A stretch of DNA of 64,000 bases, from NCBI GenBank assembly GCA_017475035.1, contig JAFVGK010000180.1:1-64000 (forward strand), given 5' to 3'. Both the position numbers and the translations under genes were made by a program. The notes under the pieces are model-generated. The model did no database searches. It was not told where the DNA came from and saw nothing but the letters and a program-made list of their open reading frames with translations. Source of the DNA: Blautia sp. (GTDB lineage Bacteria; Bacillota; Clostridia; Lachnospirales; Lachnospiraceae). The stretch's first letter is position 1. Every line of letters begins with the position of its first letter. Shown in pieces: positions 25,368 to 35,448 of the stretch.

Positions 25368-27473
25368 ATGTCGGATCTGGCTTACAGCTATATGGACTGG
25401 CCAAGGATAGAGGCCATTGTTTACCATGAAGAGGCTTCTCCGAGAGATGTGATGGCACCGCGCATTACACCGGATGGCATATTGATCCAGGGATATTTTC
25501 CTGATGCTGCGTCAGCTTCGGTCATTTCCTCGCAGAAAAAATACGAGATGGCGAGAGAGGATGCTGCCGGCTATTTTGCGGCGGTCATACCGGGAAGAAA
25601 GATTCCGGAATACCGTTTCTGCGTGCAGTATGCAGAGGAGAAAAAAGAGTTTTATGATGCCTATGCCTATCCCGGGACTTTGACTCCGGATGAGGAAAAG
25701 GCTTTTCTTTCCGGTGTGTTTTATGAAGCCTACAGAAAAATGGGAGCACACCGCGTGATACAAAACGGGACGTCAGGATATTCATTTGCCGTATGGGCGC
25801 CAAATGCCGTACGAGTCAGCCTTGTCGGTGATTTTAACCATTGGGACGGCCGACCTTTGCCGATGCACAAGATGCCCATGTCAGGAATATTTGAACTCTT
25901 TATCCCCGGGATGAAGGCAGGGGAAAGATATGCCTACGAGATAAAAACAAAGCGTGGGGACGTATTTCTGAAGGTTGATCCTTATGGGGCATGTACGGTA
26001 AAAGGAAAGCCATCGGATGTTCTTCCTTTATACAGCGTGACTCCGCCGGAAGAAGATTTCAGCTGGGAGGATGCGGGATATCTGGCCGAAAGACCTGGTT
26101 TTGCGGACAGAGATACACCCTTGAGCATCCTGGAGCTGAAAGCGGATGAGTGGAAGGATCCTGCGGATCTGGTTTCCTATGTCAAGGAGAGAGGCTTTAC
26201 ACATGTAGAGCTTCTTCCCGTCGCGGATTATCTGCCGGACAGCGGAGAAGGGTATTCCACGGCTGCTTATTTTTCCGTAGGAATGGAGCTTGGCGGCGCG
26301 TCCGCTCTGAAAACCCTGGTTAATTCTCTTCACAAGGCCGGGATCGGGGTAATCTGTGACTGGACGCCGGCGCAGTTTTCCGGTTTTGCGGGAGGACTAT
26401 CCAAATTTGACGGGACTCCTCTGTATGAACCGACAGATCCTTCGGCAGCGATTCATCCGAAATGGGGAACGTATTTATACAATTATGACAGCCCCATGGT
26501 TAAGGATTTCCTTTTGTCAAATGCCTGTTATCTGGCGGAAGAGTTCCATATGGATGGTCTGCGGCTGGATGATGTGGATGCCATGCTGTATCTGGACTAT
26601 TATCGTTCGGAAGGAAGCTATCAGCCAAATATATATGGGACGAATGAAAACCTTGCGGCAGTGGAGTTTTTCAAACACCTGAATTCCATTCTGCATAAGA
26701 AATATCCGGGGATCCTTACGATCGCCCAGGAGGACGGCTTATGGCCGGAGCTGACCCAGAGCGTGAAGGATGACCATCCGGGATTCGATTATAAATGGAA
26801 TGGAAACTGGACGTCAGCCTTTTTATCCTATCTGGCTGTGGATCCGATCTATCGGAAAAATGATCATGATCAGTTGACACTGTCGATGCTGTACGCTTAT
26901 TGCGAGCATTATGTCCTTACCCTCGGAAGACGCGATGTAGGCGGCTATGCCGGATTTATGAGCAAACTTTTCGGCAGCGATGCGCAAAAACAGGCGCAGA
27001 TCCGGACTGCGTTTGCGTATCAATATCTCCATCCGGGAGCAAAGATGATCACAGCCATGCCGGACGCTCCGGCAGAGCTGAAAAAGTTTCTGCATGACCT
27101 GAATGAAATTTATCGGGAATATCCGGCACTGTCGGTTCTCGATTCCGATTATGAGGGGTTTGAGTGGATTCAGCTTACCCGGTATGACGAGAATGTACTC
27201 GCCTTTTTGCGTAAGGGCAGGGAGAATGACCAGATGCTTCTGGCAGTATTGAATTTCTCGGCTGTTGATTTCGATCAATATGCCGTGGGGGTACCTTTCT
27301 CCGGAAAATATAAAGAGATATTTAATACAGATAAGACAATTTACGGAGGAAATGGTTTCACAAATCCGAGAGTAAAAGCTTCGCATCCTGAGGAATGCGA
27401 TGAGCGCCCGGATTCGATCAAAGTGAGACTGGGGGCTTTATCTGCGGCGATATTTGTGTGCAGTGAAGCCTGA
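25368..27473 (+). CDS. 1,4-alpha-glucan branching enzyme-like GH13 protein with altered catalytic residues
   Basis: A 701-residue protein with GlgB architecture: an N-terminal region, a CBM48 domain at about residues 140-215 (YSFAVWAPNAVRVSLVGDFNHWDG), a GH13 barrel and a C-terminal beta domain. The nucleophile is kept (LRLDDVDAMLYLDY, Asp401), as is the acid/base Glu455 (IAQED). But the conserved His of region I (DWVPAH in typical GlgB) is Gln336, and the HDE of region IV is Arg521-Arg522-Asp523, so the transition-state Asp appears lost. Glycogen branching may therefore be weak, changed or absent; a glucan-binding or regulatory role is possible. No other glycogen gene is in the window. Confidence 0.82.
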   Translation: MSDLAYSYMDWPRIEAIVYHEEASPRDVMAPRITPDGILIQGYFPDAASASVISSQKKYEMAREDAAGYFAAVIPGRKIPEYRFCVQYAEEKKEFYDAYAYPGTLTPDEEKAFLSGVFYEAYRKMGAHRVIQNGTSGYSFAVWAPNAVRVSLVGDFNHWDGRPLPMHKMPMSGIFELFIPGMKAGERYAYEIKTKRGDVFLKVDPYGACTVKGKPSDVLPLYSVTPPEEDFSWEDAGYLAERPGFADRDTPLSILELKADEWKDPADLVSYVKERGFTHVELLPVADYLPDSGEGYSTAAYFSVGMELGGASALKTLVNSLHKAGIGVICDWTPAQFSGFAGGLSKFDGTPLYEPTDPSAAIHPKWGTYLYNYDSPMVKDFLLSNACYLAEEFHMDGLRLDDVDAMLYLDYYRSEGSYQPNIYGTNENLAAVEFFKHLNSILHKKYPGILTIAQEDGLWPELTQSVKDDHPGFDYKWNGNWTSAFLSYLAVDPIYRKNDHDQLTLSMLYAYCEHYVLTLGRRDVGGYAGFMSKLFGSDAQKQAQIRTAFAYQYLHPGAKMITAMPDAPAELKKFLHDLNEIYREYPALSVLDSDYEGFEWIQLTRYDENVLAFLRKGRENDQMLLAVLNFSAVDFDQYAVGVPFSGKYKEIFNTDKTIYGGNGFTNPRVKASHPEECDERPDSIKVRLGALSAAIFVCSEA

Positions 27474-27642: not shown

Positions 27643-28662
27643 ATGAAAAAAAAGCTTTGCGCGTTATTTACGGCAGCATTTCTGGGGCTGAGCCTTTTTG
27701 CAGGCGCCGGATTCGCTGCTGAACCGGAAGAAGGGACGGATTGGACGGATTACGTACTGGAGTTTTCTGATGAGTATTTTGCTTTTCGAAGCTTTCTTGG
27801 GGAGGATATGGGAAACTTCTATTTACGTAAATCGACTGAAGATGAGTGGTCGAATACGCTGTCAAAAGTCGGTACTTCTTCTTATGATATCAGGTTTGTC
27901 GGTGACAAGGGCGGAGTTTTCCTTTTCTTTGGCCTGCCATTAGGCAATGCAAACCGGCTGAACCTGTATTCTCAAAATGGGTTTGATTATGCGCAATATG
28001 TGACAGATAAAGGGGAGACTGTTACGACCACGCCTGTCCTTGGTTATGAAGAGCCTGTGGAACTGACGGTAAGCGAGACCTTAAATGTCCGTTCCACTCC
28101 GGATACAAGCAAGACAAGGATCGGAACCGTGAGCACGAACGCAAAGGTAAAGGCCTACGGTGAAGCGGACGGAGACAACGGTTTTAAATGGTATCTTGTC
28201 AGATATAACAAGGGTTATGGATTCTTATCCGGGCAATACTTACGCGATGCGGACGGTGTCCCGGTACAGCCCACCCCGACACCGAAAAATACCAGGCCGG
28301 CAGATGAAGATTCCGATGAAGATTCCGATGAAGAGTCCGAGGATAATTCAGTGGAAGAAAACTCTGAAGACGAAGCGGAAGAAAACTCCGGAGAAGCAGA
28401 GCAGGAAGAGGATTTCACTGAGGATGAGGCGGAAGAGAACCCTGAATCTGTCAATGAGGGGGAAGGCGCTGACTCTGACGAAGAGGATATTGCCGAACCG
28501 TCGGAAGGGGCAGATCAGGGCGGGCAGGGGGAAACCGCTGCCGCAGCTGAGGATTCTGGTACGGAAGAAAATATTGTGAGAGTAGAGTCTTTACACAATC
28601 CGGGTCATGGATATATCTTCTATTTACGCGATGACGGAACGGTTGTTTCTGAGCTTTATTAA
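27643..28662 (+). CDS. Secreted SH3-domain protein with long acidic tract
   Basis: A 339-residue protein of unknown function. The signal peptide (MKKKLCALFTAAFLGLSLFAGAG, cleaved near GFAA) precedes a domain of about 100 residues I do not recognise. A bacterial SH3 domain follows at about 137-205 (TLNVRSTPD, then YGFLSGQYL), which usually binds cell-wall peptides. A PTPTP hinge leads to about 90 residues dominated by Asp, Glu and Ser (222-310) and a short C-terminal domain (GHGYIFYLRDDG). ATG 27643 follows GGGGGT; the frame runs upstream to 27589 without a better site. It is the first gene of a three-gene cassette ending in an Hsp70-like ATPase. Confidence 0.8.
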   Translation: MKKKLCALFTAAFLGLSLFAGAGFAAEPEEGTDWTDYVLEFSDEYFAFRSFLGEDMGNFYLRKSTEDEWSNTLSKVGTSSYDIRFVGDKGGVFLFFGLPLGNANRLNLYSQNGFDYAQYVTDKGETVTTTPVLGYEEPVELTVSETLNVRSTPDTSKTRIGTVSTNAKVKAYGEADGDNGFKWYLVRYNKGYGFLSGQYLRDADGVPVQPTPTPKNTRPADEDSDEDSDEESEDNSVEENSEDEAEENSGEAEQEEDFTEDEAEENPESVNEGEGADSDEEDIAEPSEGADQGGQGETAAAAEDSGTEENIVRVESLHNPGHGYIFYLRDDGTVVSELY

Positions 28663-28679
28663 AGGGAAGGCATGGATCT

Positions 28680-29570
28680 ATGAAAGCGAAAGAACTTCTC
28701 GAACAGGATAAAGATCGTTTCATGTCGAAGTTTGGGCAGGATTTATCTCCGAGTGACGGAATTCTGGCGGTGGAAGATCAGCTTGACCGTATCCTTTACA
28801 GATATTGTACGGACGAGACGCCGCCGCAGGTTGCCATGCATGCCCGTTTGAGCTTTACAGCGCTGAAAGCTTCCCTGCCTCTGATGGACGAAGTCGGAGA
28901 GATAAAAATCTATGAGCAGACGAGGGAACGGACTCCAAAGGATGCTCTGAAAAAAGAAAGGGGCATACTTGCCGCGGCAATCGCTGCCGTGCTTTTGATT
29001 GCGAGTGTCATGCTGGCTTCATGCGGGGGAGGAAACGGTATTCTTATTTTTCTTTCTCTTTGTTCGGGGAGTGCAGCACTTGTGACCGCCTTTTTGCAAG
29101 GACAGCAAAAAGGAAAACCGGTAAAGGCGCAAGCCTCTCAACGTAAGATTGAAAAATGCGTTGACGTGGAAAAGCTTTATCATGATCTGTCAACCCTGAT
29201 GACAGTCATGGATGAAAACCTGGAGGAAATAGAGAGTTCAGCTGCGGAAGCTGACAGGACCGAAGAGACGGAGACTGGTCCTGAGGTGCTGGATTCGTCA
29301 GTTTTGGACGCGGATTTTCTCAGCCTTCTGGCTTCTGTCCTGGAAAGCGTTTATGTGTCGGGAGAGGATGCTTACGCTCAGGAGATTGTCGCACAGATAC
29401 GATTTTTCCTGCATAAGTATGGAATTGAAATGGTAGATTATTCTGCTGATCAGCAGCAATTATTTGATTTGATGCCGTCCCTTCACGAACAGACGATTCG
29501 TCCTGCTCTTGTGCATGAGGGTGTGCTTCTAAGCAAAGGCCTGTCTACATTGAAGACAACGGTTACTTAA
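28680..29570 (+). CDS. Two-helix membrane protein, possible GrpE-like partner of the adjacent Hsp70-like ATPase
   Basis: A 296-residue protein. An N-terminal cytoplasmic part of about 95 residues is followed by two hydrophobic helices (roughly 96-114 and 120-139) and a C-terminal cytoplasmic part with a helical stretch (VEKLYHDLSTLMTVMDENLEEIE). The tail KYGIEMVDYSADQQQLFDLMP...TIRPALV faintly recalls the beta domain of GrpE, the nucleotide-exchange factor of Hsp70. That resemblance, by eye only, fits its place 107 bp before an Hsp70-like gene. AAGGGAAGG precedes the ATG, 17 nt after the SH3 gene. I do not know a family name for it. Confidence 0.75.
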   Translation: MKAKELLEQDKDRFMSKFGQDLSPSDGILAVEDQLDRILYRYCTDETPPQVAMHARLSFTALKASLPLMDEVGEIKIYEQTRERTPKDALKKERGILAAAIAAVLLIASVMLASCGGGNGILIFLSLCSGSAALVTAFLQGQQKGKPVKAQASQRKIEKCVDVEKLYHDLSTLMTVMDENLEEIESSAAEADRTEETETGPEVLDSSVLDADFLSLLASVLESVYVSGEDAYAQEIVAQIRFFLHKYGIEMVDYSADQQQLFDLMPSLHEQTIRPALVHEGVLLSKGLSTLKTTVT

Positions 29571-29577
29571 GGAGACT

Positions 29578-29620
29578 GATTCTGCTGCTTTGGCAGCCCG
29601 GCTGCCGAAGCAGCAGAATC
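29578..29620 (+). other. 19-bp intergenic hairpin before the Hsp70-like gene
   Basis: Positions 29578-29596 (GATTCTGCTGC...) pair with 29602-29620 (...GCAGCAGAATC) over a CCCGG loop, with one G-T pair. There is no T-tract, so it is not a standard terminator. It could stabilise or process the cassette mRNA. The outer GATTCTGC is shared with the R2 repeat family. Confidence 0.6.
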
Positions 29621-29677
29621 GTCATCCGAAGACGTTTAGTCACCCTGCAAAACTGCGTTTTTGGGAGGAGGAGACCT

Positions 29678-31591
29678 ATGGAACGCTTTTTTGGCTTTGA
29701 TCTGGGGGATGCGGAGAGCGCGGTCTGCGTGCTTTCCAGAAAAGGGGAAAAGTCACCAAGGATTCTGCCTGTCTGTGGGGAAAAAAGCCTGGTGACTGCC
29801 TATGCGACCCTTTCGGATAAAAAAATCCTGATCGGAGAAAATGCCTGTTACCATCCGGAAGCGACAGAGCGTAAGCTGCGTTTTAAAAGCAGGTTCCTGA
29901 AGGATGAGTCGAGTGAACGGGATGTGCGCTGCTTTGCTCTTGGCCTGCTGAATGAATTGTATCAGGACGGCAGCCTGGAGCGGGACGAAGACTGCGCTTT
30001 TTATATCGGCTGCCCCGCAGGCTGGAACAGGGTGGAAAGAGAAAGGTACCGAAAGCTGTTCGAAGAGAGCGGTTTTCCTCCGGTACGGATTATTTCGGAA
30101 TCCCGCGCGGCAATGGTATCGGCCTGCCAGTCACGGCATCTGCAGGTTGGTTATGATATTCTGTCACATCCGGTCCTGGTTGTGGATATAGGCTCTTCTA
30201 CTACGGACTTTGCCTATATTATGGGCGGCAAAGAAGTGGAGCTGCGCACGGCGGGAGAAGTGTATCTCGGCGGGGGACTGATGGATGAGCTGCTTTTGGA
30301 GAAAAGCGTGGCTGCCAGTCCGGATGCTGACCGGATACGGGAAGTATTTGCCAAAAGTGAAGCATGGCGAAGCTATTGTGAATTTGCGGCGCGGCGGTTA
30401 AAGGAAAAATATTTTTCCGATGAGGAATATTGGAAAACAAATGATTGCGTTCAGACAGTTCGTATTTTGTATGACAGTCCCTTGCGCCTGACGCTGAGAA
30501 TGAATGAAAAGATTGCGGAACAGATTCTCTACGGTCCCATGGAAGCTCTGGGAGGAAGTTCTTTCTATAAAGTATTTCGTGACAGTCTTGTACAGATTCG
30601 GGACGGACTGGCAAAGAGCCAGCCGGATCTTGTTTTTTTAACCGGCGGCGTCTCAAAGCTGAGTGTTCTTGCAAGATGGTGCAGTGTGGTTTACCCTGAC
30701 GCAATCGTGATTACCGGAACCGAACCGGAGTTTTCCGTAGCCAGAGGGCTTGCCTGGTGCGGGCGGGTCGATGAGGATCTGAGGGCCTTTTCCCGTGAGG
30801 TGGAGGATCTGAAGGATTCCTCTACAGTGGAGAGGATCGTATCAAAGCATATCGGGGAGCTGTATCGTGACGCGGTGGATCATCTGACTCAGCCGATCAT
30901 TGAAAATGCGGTTCTTCCTGTCCTGGATCAGTGGAGAAATGGGGAAATAACAACATTAAAGGAAATTGATGGTATATTGACAAAAGAGGTAGCGGATTAT
31001 CTCCGGACAAAGGAAGTAAGGAAGCTTTTGCAGGCACCTGTAGCGGCGTGGCTGAAGCCCGTGGCTTATGAGCTGGAGGAATACACAGTTCCGATTTGTG
31101 TCAGACATAATGTCCCTTATCGCGCATTAAGCCTGAATTCCTATCTGTCTCTTTCAGAGGTGGATATTCGGGTGGAGGCAAAAGACGTTTTTGCCGTGGA
31201 AGAACTGACGTTAATGATTGATACGATTATCACGATCCTGGTAGGCATCCTCTGCGGGGGAGGAGGGATTGCCATGATCGCGCAGGGACTGCCGGGGATT
31301 ATAGCGGGAGCCGTGCTTTCGATCCTGGTTCTTCTTCTGGGAAAAGAAAAAATGCAGAATGTCCTGCTTACCGCGAATATCCCGACAGCTGTGAGGAAAC
31401 TGATTCCCAGGAGCACCTTTGTCAACCGTATGGATAAGGTTGCGGATCAGGTAAAGGAAAAATTCTACGAAAGTCTGCAAAAGGAAAATAATGCCGCTAT
31501 CACAGAGCATATGGCAGATGAGATATCCGCGCAGATCGATGACTGCCTGGTACGTATGGCTAAGGTGGTGGAGGTTCCTCTGGCGGGATGA
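29678..31591 (+). CDS. Hsp70-like actin-fold ATPase with C-terminal membrane hairpin
   Basis: A 637-residue protein. The N-terminal half is an Hsp70/actin-type ATPase: phosphate-1 loop FGFDLGDAESAV (residues 4-15), phosphate-2 loop DIGSSTTDF (from Asp170) and adenosine motif FLTGGVSKLSVLARW near 325. Instead of an Hsp70 peptide-binding domain it has a long helical region (about 370-510), two closely spaced membrane helices (about 513-550) and a helical tail. That second half is laid out like the membrane part of dynamin-like proteins, but no GTPase is present. GGGAGGAGGAG precedes the ATG. With the two genes upstream it forms a probable envelope-associated machine of unknown purpose. Confidence 0.82.
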   Translation: MERFFGFDLGDAESAVCVLSRKGEKSPRILPVCGEKSLVTAYATLSDKKILIGENACYHPEATERKLRFKSRFLKDESSERDVRCFALGLLNELYQDGSLERDEDCAFYIGCPAGWNRVERERYRKLFEESGFPPVRIISESRAAMVSACQSRHLQVGYDILSHPVLVVDIGSSTTDFAYIMGGKEVELRTAGEVYLGGGLMDELLLEKSVAASPDADRIREVFAKSEAWRSYCEFAARRLKEKYFSDEEYWKTNDCVQTVRILYDSPLRLTLRMNEKIAEQILYGPMEALGGSSFYKVFRDSLVQIRDGLAKSQPDLVFLTGGVSKLSVLARWCSVVYPDAIVITGTEPEFSVARGLAWCGRVDEDLRAFSREVEDLKDSSTVERIVSKHIGELYRDAVDHLTQPIIENAVLPVLDQWRNGEITTLKEIDGILTKEVADYLRTKEVRKLLQAPVAAWLKPVAYELEEYTVPICVRHNVPYRALSLNSYLSLSEVDIRVEAKDVFAVEELTLMIDTIITILVGILCGGGGIAMIAQGLPGIIAGAVLSILVLLLGKEKMQNVLLTANIPTAVRKLIPRSTFVNRMDKVADQVKEKFYESLQKENNAAITEHMADEISAQIDDCLVRMAKVVEVPLAG

Positions 31592-31611: not shown

Positions 31612-31640
31612 TTGACAGGCAAGGGTTCATATCATATAAT
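31612..31640 (+). promoter_or_regulatory. Consensus sigma-A promoter of tRNA-Thr
   Basis: TTGACA (31612-31617), a 17-nt spacer and TATAAT (31635-31640), a perfect consensus match, about 44 nt before the tRNA. Confidence 0.93.
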
Positions 31641-31683
31641 AGCATTCGTGCCAAGGAGAAGGCCTTATTTCTCCTTGGGATAA

Positions 31684-31756
31684 GCTGGAATAGCTCAGTC
31701 GGTAGAGCACTTCACTCGTAATGAAGGGGTCGAGAGTTCGAGTCTCTTTTCCAGCT
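31684..31756 (+). tRNA. tRNA-Thr (anticodon CGT)
   Basis: A 73-nt cloverleaf: acceptor GCTGGAA/TTCCAGC, D arm GCTC...GAGC, anticodon stem CTTCA/TGAAG around the loop CTCGTAA (anticodon CGT, reading ACG), and T arm GAGAG-TTCGAGT-CTCTT. The discriminator is U at 31756, and CCA is not encoded. A consensus promoter precedes it and a terminator follows. Confidence 0.96.
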
Positions 31757-31763
31757 TTTTCTT

Positions 31764-33267: not shown

Positions 33268-35448
33268 ATGGAGCTTTTGAATGATAGAATAGATGTAGAA
33301 GAAAAAGAGGCGACCTCAGAGGAGATGGCTGAAGCTGCTGCCGGGAATAATGAGACGGAAGCACACGAATCAATGACAGAAGACGCCGTAAAAGAGACCG
33401 CATCTCAGGAATCGGAGCCCCAGGAAACCGGGAGTGAAACGGCATCCCCGGAGTCGATAACCGAAGAGGAAGAGGATGAGGAAGATTCATCCGAGGAGTC
33501 AGATACTGAGGAGGATGAGGAAGATTCATCCGAGGAGTCAGATACTGAGGAGGATGAGGAAGATTCATCCGAGGAGTCAGCCGCCGAAAAAAGTTTTTAT
33601 GGTGATCCGCGGCCTGCAGGTGAAGATTATATAGATGAAGAATCACCTCTGGATGAGGAGATGCCTTATGAAGAACAGCAGGCATATCGGTCTCAGCGTG
33701 CTTACGATCGGGATTTTGAGCGGCTGTTGGAGGATGAGACAGATGATGTAATCTTTTATGATGACCGCTTTATCGTAAAACGTGATCCCTACCATGCCAG
33801 ACAGTCGGAAACGCAGGGGCGTACCGGATCCCGGGAAGGAAGAGCAGAGCAAAGACAGAACCATGGCGAAGCATCATCTCAGGAAGGTGAACGTAAGGTA
33901 ACGCTTCCGCCGGGGAGACAGGATGGATATCCGGTCAGAAATCTGAGACCGAGATCGGCGCGTCCGAGACAGATCACGTATGTGGATATGTCCGTTCATG
34001 ATGAATATGTCCCTCCGCTGATAAAAAAGAAAAAAGGTCATAAAGGCGCTAAGGTTATGGCGGGGCTGCTTGGAATTGTAGTATTGCTGCTTGCGGCCGG
34101 TTATGCGGGATTATCCTATTACTATACGGATCACTTCTTTATTGGCACCAGAATCAACGGCATAGACAGTTCCAATATGACGCCCTATGAAGTGGAGCAG
34201 GCCATTGCAAAAAGATTCGATGATTATTCCATTTCCGTGGCGTCGAGAAATCAGGAAACGCAAACGATTCAGGGAAGCGCGATTGATTATTGCTATCTGT
34301 CGGATGGCGAGATATTGAAGCTTTTGCAAAGACAAAAACCATATGAATGGATCCGCGGCTTTTTTGATCGGACCAGTTATACGGTGGAAGAAAACGTCAG
34401 TTATAATAAAAAACTATTGCGCACACAATTAAGCAGTCTTGCATGTGCGCAGGAAGAAAATCAGGTTCCTCCGGTAAACGCATATATCACACGGGTAAAT
34501 GATGAGTTTGCGATCGTTCCCGAGACGGAGGGCAGCGATCTGAACTTAAAAGAAGCCTTTTATGCTTTGGATGAAGCGATTGAAGAAGGGGAAGCTTCCA
34601 TTGATCTGGATCAGGCCGGGGCATATGAAGCAGCGCAGCTGACCGGAGACAGCCCTGAGATCATAGGTATGCTGAACGCATATAATAATTATGCGAACGC
34701 CAGTATTACATATACTTTTGGGGATGACAGGGTGACCTTAAACGGTGATCAGCTTACGGATTGGCTGGAAGTGGATGAAAACGGACGTATTATTCAGGAT
34801 CCCGGTATTTTTATGGGGCATGTCTACGACTTTGTAGGGAACCTTGCAGCAGAACATGATACCGTCGGTACCACCCGCCCGTTTTACGCTTCGGACGGTC
34901 GTCTGGTATATGTGTACAGTTATGTTTTCGGCTGGCAGATCGATCAGGTAGCGGAAGCGGAGCACCTTGCAGCTGATATTGCGGGCGGAGCAGTGGTAAC
35001 CAGAGAGCCTGAATATGCGATGCGTGGTAATTCCTATGGGTTTAATGACCTTGGAGATACCTATATCGAAGTAGATATGGGAAATCAGCATATGTATTAT
35101 TACCAGAACGGCTATATTATTTTTGATTCCGATTTTGTCTCAGGGGATGTCACAAAAGAAGGACGCGCTACGCCGGAGGGAGTCTATTATCTGTACGGTA
35201 AACAAAGCCCCGCTGTCCTTCGCGGAGAACAGGATGAAAACGGGAAATATGAATATGAGACGGAAGTGGAATACTGGATGCCTTTTAACGGAGGCGTAGG
35301 TTTCCATGATGCTCCCTGGCAGCCTTACTTTGGCGGGGACCGGTATATGGGAGGCGGCTCCCATGGCTGTATCAATCTTCCTTCTTATGCTGCGGCAGAG
35401 CTTTACAATATCATCGGCTACGATGTGCCGATCGTCTGTTTCTATTAA
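33268..35448 (+). CDS. Membrane-anchored L,D-transpeptidase (YkuD) with acidic repeat tail
   Basis: A 726-residue peptidoglycan cross-linking enzyme. The first ~250 residues are cytoplasmic and very acidic, including a 13-residue repeat (EEDEEDSSEESDT) three times. One transmembrane helix is at about 264-284. Outside follow PG-binding-type domains (about 300-560) and a C-terminal YkuD domain with catalytic SHGCINLP (Cys701). YkuD enzymes form meso-DAP to meso-DAP bonds, which fits the ddh gene in this window. The start is ATG 33268, with GGGAGG a little far upstream (about 14 nt). Such a long acidic intracellular tail is unusual and could bind cytoplasmic partners. It lies downstream of hom with no terminator between. 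Confidence 0.92.
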   Translation: MELLNDRIDVEEKEATSEEMAEAAAGNNETEAHESMTEDAVKETASQESEPQETGSETASPESITEEEEDEEDSSEESDTEEDEEDSSEESDTEEDEEDSSEESAAEKSFYGDPRPAGEDYIDEESPLDEEMPYEEQQAYRSQRAYDRDFERLLEDETDDVIFYDDRFIVKRDPYHARQSETQGRTGSREGRAEQRQNHGEASSQEGERKVTLPPGRQDGYPVRNLRPRSARPRQITYVDMSVHDEYVPPLIKKKKGHKGAKVMAGLLGIVVLLLAAGYAGLSYYYTDHFFIGTRINGIDSSNMTPYEVEQAIAKRFDDYSISVASRNQETQTIQGSAIDYCYLSDGEILKLLQRQKPYEWIRGFFDRTSYTVEENVSYNKKLLRTQLSSLACAQEENQVPPVNAYITRVNDEFAIVPETEGSDLNLKEAFYALDEAIEEGEASIDLDQAGAYEAAQLTGDSPEIIGMLNAYNNYANASITYTFGDDRVTLNGDQLTDWLEVDENGRIIQDPGIFMGHVYDFVGNLAAEHDTVGTTRPFYASDGRLVYVYSYVFGWQIDQVAEAEHLAADIAGGAVVTREPEYAMRGNSYGFNDLGDTYIEVDMGNQHMYYYQNGYIIFDSDFVSGDVTKEGRATPEGVYYLYGKQSPAVLRGEQDENGKYEYETEVEYWMPFNGGVGFHDAPWQPYFGGDRYMGGGSHGCINLPSYAAAELYNIIGYDVPIVCFY
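33472..33581 (+). repeat. Tandem repeat, 39-bp unit x 2.8, inside the L,D-transpeptidase gene
   Basis: Units 33472-33510 and 33511-33549 are identical base for base, and a third partial unit starts at 33550. Each unit encodes 13 residues, so loss or gain keeps the frame. The identity, rather than mere codon similarity, suggests recent duplication. Confidence 0.9.

Follow-up and report, generated by a model that had tools for sequence, protein, structure and literature searches.

Positions 27,643 to 31,591 of the DNA studied here, a 64,000-nucleotide stretch of a Blautia sp. genome (contig JAFVGK010000180.1; hereafter the window), hold three adjacent genes, which we call P1, P2 and P3. An earlier annotation based on the letters alone (the original prediction) interpreted all three as one ATP-driven machine of the cell envelope. 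We propose instead that P2 and P3 form a two-gene module, in which P3 would be a membrane-anchored, cytosol-facing ATP switch and P2 its dedicated membrane partner, and we assign this reading a probability of roughly 0.45. The core of the module consists of P2 and P3 only. All three open reading frames are real, lie where the original prediction placed them and share the + strand, and a purine-rich stretch precedes the start of each.

27643-28662, + strand: P1, secreted SH3_3 protein with an acidic stretch, ending in 'PGHGYIF' at the C-terminus; accessory gene limited to one clade
28680-29570, + strand: P2, two-helix membrane protein of 296 amino acids; core gene
29678-31591, + strand: P3, 637 amino acids, with an Hsp70-type nucleotide-binding domain (about 1-365), a helical region, a glycine-rich membrane hairpin (about 517-555) and a helical tail; core gene

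Pairing and constraint of P2 and P3

A single scan of a genome collection yielded 180 relatives of P3, from which 80 loci were kept (L and G numbers below are the locus and genome labels of this analysis). In 78 of these loci P3 is immediately preceded by P2 on the same strand, with P2 cut by a contig end in three; in the remaining two, P3 starts at base 1 and base 56 of its contig. The gap between the two genes ranges from -4 to +144 nucleotides in 83 measured loci, which include five from the same genus, and the gene ends overlap in 14 of 81 distinct loci, since two of the 83 repeat a contig already counted. P2 is also present in all eight loci of a family-level sample (L127-L134), although four of these contigs were already counted in the 80 (L127/L019, L128/L060, L131/L076 and L132/L045 were taken as the same contigs, as were L003/L017 and L004/L043). 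Among 61 related genomes (37 from the genus of the window and 24 from elsewhere in the order), P2 occurs at E <1e-80 in seven, six of which have P3; the contig of the remaining one stops 22 bases past P2. Five more of the 61 show weak P2 matches only, over the hydrophobic part (E 5.6e-5 to 8.2e-4). The co-occurrence that the original prediction made its first test thus holds for P2 with P3 and fails for all three genes together, P1 being confined to one clade (see below).

Over nearly its entire length P3 shows 56-72% identity (best segment) in the 80 loci, so its frame is not a product of chance. Alignments were made of 50 rows for each protein, a part of all loci; mean column identity is 69% for P3 and 33% for the more variable P2. 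The ratio of nonsynonymous to synonymous substitution rates in 12 close pairs is 0.005-0.121 for P3 and 0.009-0.178 for P2, and on these values both are working genes under purifying selection. At one locus (L134/L137, G881:C20) P3 is found in two frames, divided where the nucleotide-binding domain gives way to the membrane part, by a frameshift or as a natural split.

The nucleotide-binding domain of P3

Searched alone, P3 of the window matches the Pfam families MreB_Mbl (1.8e-5) and HSP70 (2.1e-4), both below the curated cut-offs, and weakly matches Hsp70 chains in the PDB. The family is more informative: a profile of the 50-row alignment matches DnaK in the PDB at 1.4e-8, and the Pfam HSP70 family is matched by 46 of the 50 rows (best 1.6e-11), MreB_Mbl by 43 (best 1.7e-8) and FtsA by five. 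In an AlphaFold2 model of P3 (mean predicted local distance difference test score, pLDDT, 79.8), the top Foldseek matches are nucleotide-binding domains of DnaK (2.5e-14), and Mbl is also among the matches (E 6.3e-13). Nine residues, D8, G10, K70, E141, D170, G172, T175, D177 and G323, do not vary among the 50 close rows or among the 12 rows of a deeper set, which includes a cyanobacterial protein at 26% identity; guided by the alignment, we take them to fall on DnaK positions, K70 being one column off. By profile and predicted structure alike, P3 is thus assigned an Hsp70-type nucleotide-binding fold with conserved catalytic-type motifs, which bears out the ATPase fold of the original prediction. 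A dynamin relation, which that prediction had raised for the C-terminus, was rejected: none of the five Pfam families matched by the 50 rows (E <= 0.01) is a dynamin.

The membrane body of P3 and the topology of both proteins

The P3 model shows no strand beyond residue 346. P3 therefore lacks the beta substrate-binding domain of Hsp70, and the best-scoring PDB and Pfam stretches end inside the nucleotide-binding domain. In DnaK the hydrophobic linker between the domains is LLLDV; the corresponding stretch of P3 reads 'GRVDEDLRAFSREVEDLKD' by eye and is not a hydrophobic linker of the Hsp70 kind. Because both the beta domain and the linker are missing, P3 is not filed as an Hsp70 and is at most Hsp70-like in its motor part. 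The model runs from the motor domain through long helices to a membrane hairpin and then to further long helices, with hydrophobic segments at 517-535 and 537-555. It is weak over the hairpin (pLDDT <50 at 528-545); at least two hydrophobic segments are present in 44 of 50 rows, and the hairpin region aligns in remote relatives. The proposal that a helical region with two membrane helices stands in place of the peptide-binding domain therefore agrees with both model and family.

P2 and P3 both probably face the cytosol, with both ends inside, since the loops of their hairpins are short and poor in lysine and arginine (mean counts before, in and after the hydrophobic pair of 1.3, 0.0 and 2.0 for P3 and of 3.3, 0.7 and 3.9 for P2, in 44 of 50 rows each) and an ATPase must be cytosolic. 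Given this probable orientation, the passage of a signal or force across the membrane, as originally suggested, is not indicated.

P2, the two-helix partner

The AlphaFold2 model of P2 (mean pLDDT 90.7) comprises a helical N-terminal part, a strand, two hydrophobic helices (86-115 and 120-144), a second strand, a long helix, two further helices and a small beta domain. At least two hydrophobic segments fall at the hairpin region in 44 of 50 rows, and the description of P2 as a two-helix membrane protein stands. Searched alone, P2 gave no convincing family.

The tail of P2 had been thought faintly reminiscent of GrpE. The model shares with GrpE the order of long helix, short helices and small beta domain, and the 'TIRPALV' near the C-terminal end of P2 recalls by eye the end of GrpE; the profile and whole-model fold searches show no relation. 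Against a narrow set of 18 GrpE sequences from relatives, the hhalign probability is 0.2%, whereas the same GrpE profile finds a divergent GrpE of 25% identity at 97.5%. GrpE is likewise absent from the eight PDB profile matches of P2, from the 25 Foldseek matches of the whole model (the comparison used this model and not the C-terminal half alone) and from the 25 of 92 Pfam families listed for the P2 set. The resemblance is not supported by sequence, and P2 as a GrpE relative was rejected at the level of sequence profiles. The divergent GrpE, which shares 25% identity with the usual GrpE, comes from a related genome (L117, G041:C41).

P1, an accessory gene of one clade

P1 carries an SH3_3 domain (Pfam E 1e-12) and, by eye, a signal-peptide-like start and an acidic stretch of about 90 residues, as originally described. 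A profile search of the loci gathered found relatives only in the window, L009, L010, L017 and L003; the profile was built from four sequences, and a strongly diverged P1 could escape it. Of the 78 loci that have P2, 73 extend 900 bases or more upstream of it; P1 was found in three of these and not found in 70. In the P3 tree the window groups with L009, L010 and L017 in a single clade (Shimodaira-Hasegawa-like approximate likelihood ratio support of 98, quick tree), and P1 adjoins P2 and P3 in all four lineages of this clade; weaker P1-like SH3 proteins occur elsewhere in the genus, away from the pair. P1 was probably recruited into the module once, in the window's clade. Its presence in all four lineages makes a functional link with P2 and P3 possible there, and its confinement to one small clade led us to reject it as a core gene and to class it as accessory. 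Repeated acidic units at the N-terminus of the protein encoded at 33268-35448 resemble the acidic stretch of P1, and a relative of that protein lies just upstream of P2 in L061, L067 and L084.

Distribution and apparent transfer

Full-length P3 is present in six of the 37 genomes of the window's genus, which hold one remote match besides, and in none of the 24 other genomes of the order. A family-level sample gave P3 matches in 11 of 299 genomes, nine close (one with P3 in two frames) and two remote; in a class-level sample (two of 391) and a phylum-level sample (two of 398) the matches are the window's own genome and one remote match each. A search of phage and viral collections found no P3 relative, and a tblastn search of plasmids with P2 found none, this search being blind to a partner that does exist in Calothrix (see below).

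Families are intermingled in the P3 tree: placing Erysipelotrichaceae takes four changes, of which well-supported branches force two or more, and Solobacterium (L062/L080) sits among Clostridia in the P3 and P2 trees alike. The P3 tree leaves out L075 and L078, whose contigs have no space for P2, and L015, whose P3 frame is broken; the P2 tree likewise leaves out L075 and L078, together with L018, L027 and L085, in which contig ends cut P2. Since the two trees share odd placements, the pair appears, from its sequences, to have moved in part as a unit among Bacillota; the taxon labels of metagenome bins behind this statement can be wrong. The pair is scattered among gut Bacillota, and for 27 of the 80 loci the record title names a host, 26 ruminants and one horse, a raw count not set against a background rate, which suggests an ecological role.

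Remote relatives

A plasmid of the cyanobacterium Calothrix brevissima, typed as conjugative, encodes a P3 relative of 27% identity over 622 columns including the hairpin region. It is directly preceded by a two-helix protein that matches the P2 profile (22.2 bits; hhalign 66%), and the pair is located between integrase genes. The annotated P2-like gene (L122, 8000-8889) seems to be frame-shifted, since its conserved C-terminal motif does not stay in frame: the sequence with which P2 usually ends is read from a second frame as 'APALLKGDRLLRRGRV' (16.0 bits). In two remote Bacillota, G257 (L120/L144) and G459 (L139), a P3 relative with hydrophobic segments stands directly behind a partner gene whose product has two or three hydrophobic segments. 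Still more remote relatives (L140, L141 and L143), with no or one hydrophobic segment, are part of longer operons; those of L140 and L143 hold IetA-like AAA ATPases, and L141 has a similar layout by eye. Besides the Hsp70-type protein and an AAA ATPase, each of the three operons encodes smaller partner proteins, as well as proteins whose membrane helices lie close to the C-terminus.

The window's own genome encodes a remote P3 paralogue of 758 amino acids, Hsp70-type and with two hydrophobic segments (L142). It is followed by a 334-amino-acid protein, a HerA/FtsK-type ATPase of 1176 amino acids and a 243-amino-acid protein, and the whole (G000:C67, 390-8015) looks like a separate multigene system.

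Proposed mechanism and alternative explanations

In the mechanism we favour, binding and hydrolysis of ATP would open and close the lobes of the P3 nucleotide-binding domain, as in Hsp70, and the helical stalk would transmit this motion either to the membrane hairpin or to its cytosolic surface. P2 would dock on P3 and either control its nucleotide cycle or be the target on which it acts; a regulatory role is a guess, since P2 matches no known fold at E <= 0.001. The likely task would be to remodel or hold membrane-protein complexes on the cytosolic side of the membrane, where HscC has been proposed to work with its membrane-anchored J-proteins; in the window's clade the module would additionally have recruited the secreted P1. 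Such a two-gene system is small enough for expression and assay.

Several points weigh against this proposal. ATPase activity, function, contact between P2 and P3 and any client are all putative. P3 of the window, taken alone, favours MreB over HSP70 in Pfam. The P2 model resembles no solved or viral structure at E <= 0.001, and of the partners in the remote Bacillota that of L120 matches the P2 family weakly (hhalign 5.8%) and that of L139 not significantly (0.4%). Both trees carry long-branch warnings, and the neighbouring genes are ordinary and lineage-specific and give no hint of function.

A more far-reaching version, of which we are doubtful, is that P2 and P3 found an undescribed class of membrane-integral Hsp70-type machines that crosses phyla. 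In these, the motor would have been freed from peptide binding and the clamp motion coupled to a glycine-rich hairpin and a dedicated membrane partner, and ATP hydrolysis would thereby drive mechanical work in or on the membrane; the remote relatives would be built into multigene systems with AAA and HerA-type ATPases. Hsp70s are known as chaperones that grip peptides, and a conserved family that retains the ATP engine without the grip, enters the membrane and travels with one membrane partner would be a new use of that engine.

It is unlikely that P3 is instead an ATP-fuelled analogue of bacterial dynamins that remodels membranes, its hairpin serving as a paddle and P2 as a second membrane-inserting partner. 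Such a role would suit the order of motor, helices, hairpin and helices in the P3 model and the hydrophobic pairs in both proteins, and the best PADLOC match of P2 is a weak one to LeoBC (residues 94-187, E 0.0077). That match, however, falls on the hydrophobic part together with the first portion of the long helix, the motor is Hsp70-type and not a GTPase, and dynamins are missing from the five Pfam families noted above.

No likelier is an accessory system of immunity or conflict, in which P3 would sense an insult and P2 or the P3 hairpin permeabilise the membrane. Its patchy and apparently partly transferred occurrence would be in keeping with this, as would the Calothrix copy between integrase genes on a conjugative-type plasmid, the IetA-like ATPases in the L140 and L143 operons (with the similar layout of L141) and the paralogue two genes from a HerA-like ATPase. 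Yet P3 of the window has no PADLOC match and P2 none better than LeoBC, few PADLOC families occur in a random 150 of 330 sampled neighbours, selection is purifying with no arms-race pattern, and phage and viral collections lack P3 relatives. A defence-island setting was rejected on the same sample, in which 18 families were matched at E <= 1e-15, one with four members and 17 with one (14 of them PDC-S02 models; raw counts).

A machine of the cell wall with P1 as its outer partner, as first proposed, is quite improbable. P1 does stand beside the pair throughout the window's clade, and wall enzymes are adjacent in two other lineages: VanY in L036 and, by eye, an L,D-transpeptidase-like protein in the L061 clade, a relative of which is encoded at 33268-35448. 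Against this, P1 was not found in 70 of the 73 testable loci, no part of P2 or P3 lies clearly outside, and among 61 adjacent same-strand genes of 51 lineages only SH3_3 (four P1) recurs more than twice, among the 25 of 96 Pfam families listed. Enrichment of envelope genes beyond P1 was rejected on the same raw counts, and no neighbour other than P2 recurs widely around P3; in one of the neighbour surveys antisense frames masked genes at some loci, which makes its counts rough. What survives of the envelope machine is an Hsp70/actin-type ATPase on a membrane region with the gene of a two-helix partner; P1 drops out as a part. A membrane-anchored actin-like filament of the MreB/FtsA type is very unlikely: MreB_Mbl and FtsA are matched by 43 and five rows, Mbl is a fold match, and P3 of the window alone and L120 score best with MreB, but across the family the Hsp70 match is the stronger (1.6e-11 against 1.7e-8) and DnaK comes first in both the PDB profile and Foldseek searches.

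Flanking sequence

The surroundings of the three genes comprise the following features.

ending at 27473: glycogen-branching-type enzyme (by eye), upstream of P1
29578-29644, no strand: one copy of a palindromic repeat that is dispersed in the genome, located between P2 and P3 but outside the module
31683-31757: tRNA-Thr, downstream of P3
31827-33203: homoserine dehydrogenase, after the tRNA-Thr (Pfam Homoserine_dh match within the neighbour set)
33268-35448: L,D-transpeptidase-like membrane protein (by eye)

The repeat has inverted arms of 21 nucleotides, and the RNA of the gap folds at -54.8 kcal/mol (z score -6.6). It occurs in at least 41 further places in the same genome (64 matches listed, 42 places by our own count; matches are often both strands of one palindrome, and 40 of 193 candidates were scored), and the P2-P3 gap of L009 has no inverted repeat; this dispersal and absence place it outside the module. 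One fragment of a Y1-type transposase was found, at a contig edge. Between P3 and the tRNA, positions 31612-31640 match a sigma-70 type promoter perfectly (12/12).

Comparison with known systems

A search of the open-access literature with fixed phrases, judged by titles and the starts of abstracts, found no description of the P2-P3 pair; this is weak evidence of absence. The original prediction likewise knew of no described system of this composition. Paired bacterial dynamin-like proteins, as presented in the part of the source considered (PMC6104087), share with P2-P3 two adjacent genes and an NTP-driven, membrane-active character; they are GTPases of a different fold, and no sequence relation to P3 was found.

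Among the HSP70-containing GAP1-N2 conflict systems, a subset in actinobacteria and firmicutes has a second HSP70 without a peptide-binding domain; also encoded in those loci are GTPases, GrpE and an FNIII protein fused to DnaJ or TPR (Kaur et al. 2020, PMC7159879, in the sections considered). P2-P3 stands alone in comparison with these larger loci, for which the same sections do not mention a membrane hairpin. The neighbour counts show no recurrent GrpE, GTPase or FNIII genes beside P3, no search having been aimed at GAP1-N2.

With DnaK, HscA and HscC, P3 has the nucleotide-binding fold and its motifs in common; it differs from them in having neither beta domain nor linker, in carrying a membrane hairpin of its own and in being paired with P2. 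The passages considered of a review that names three prokaryotic Hsp70 types describe none resembling P3 (PMC8215388). According to the same passages, HscC is proposed to act at the plasma membrane through the tail-anchored J-proteins DjlB and DjlC, which is the nearest described situation to that of P2 and P3.

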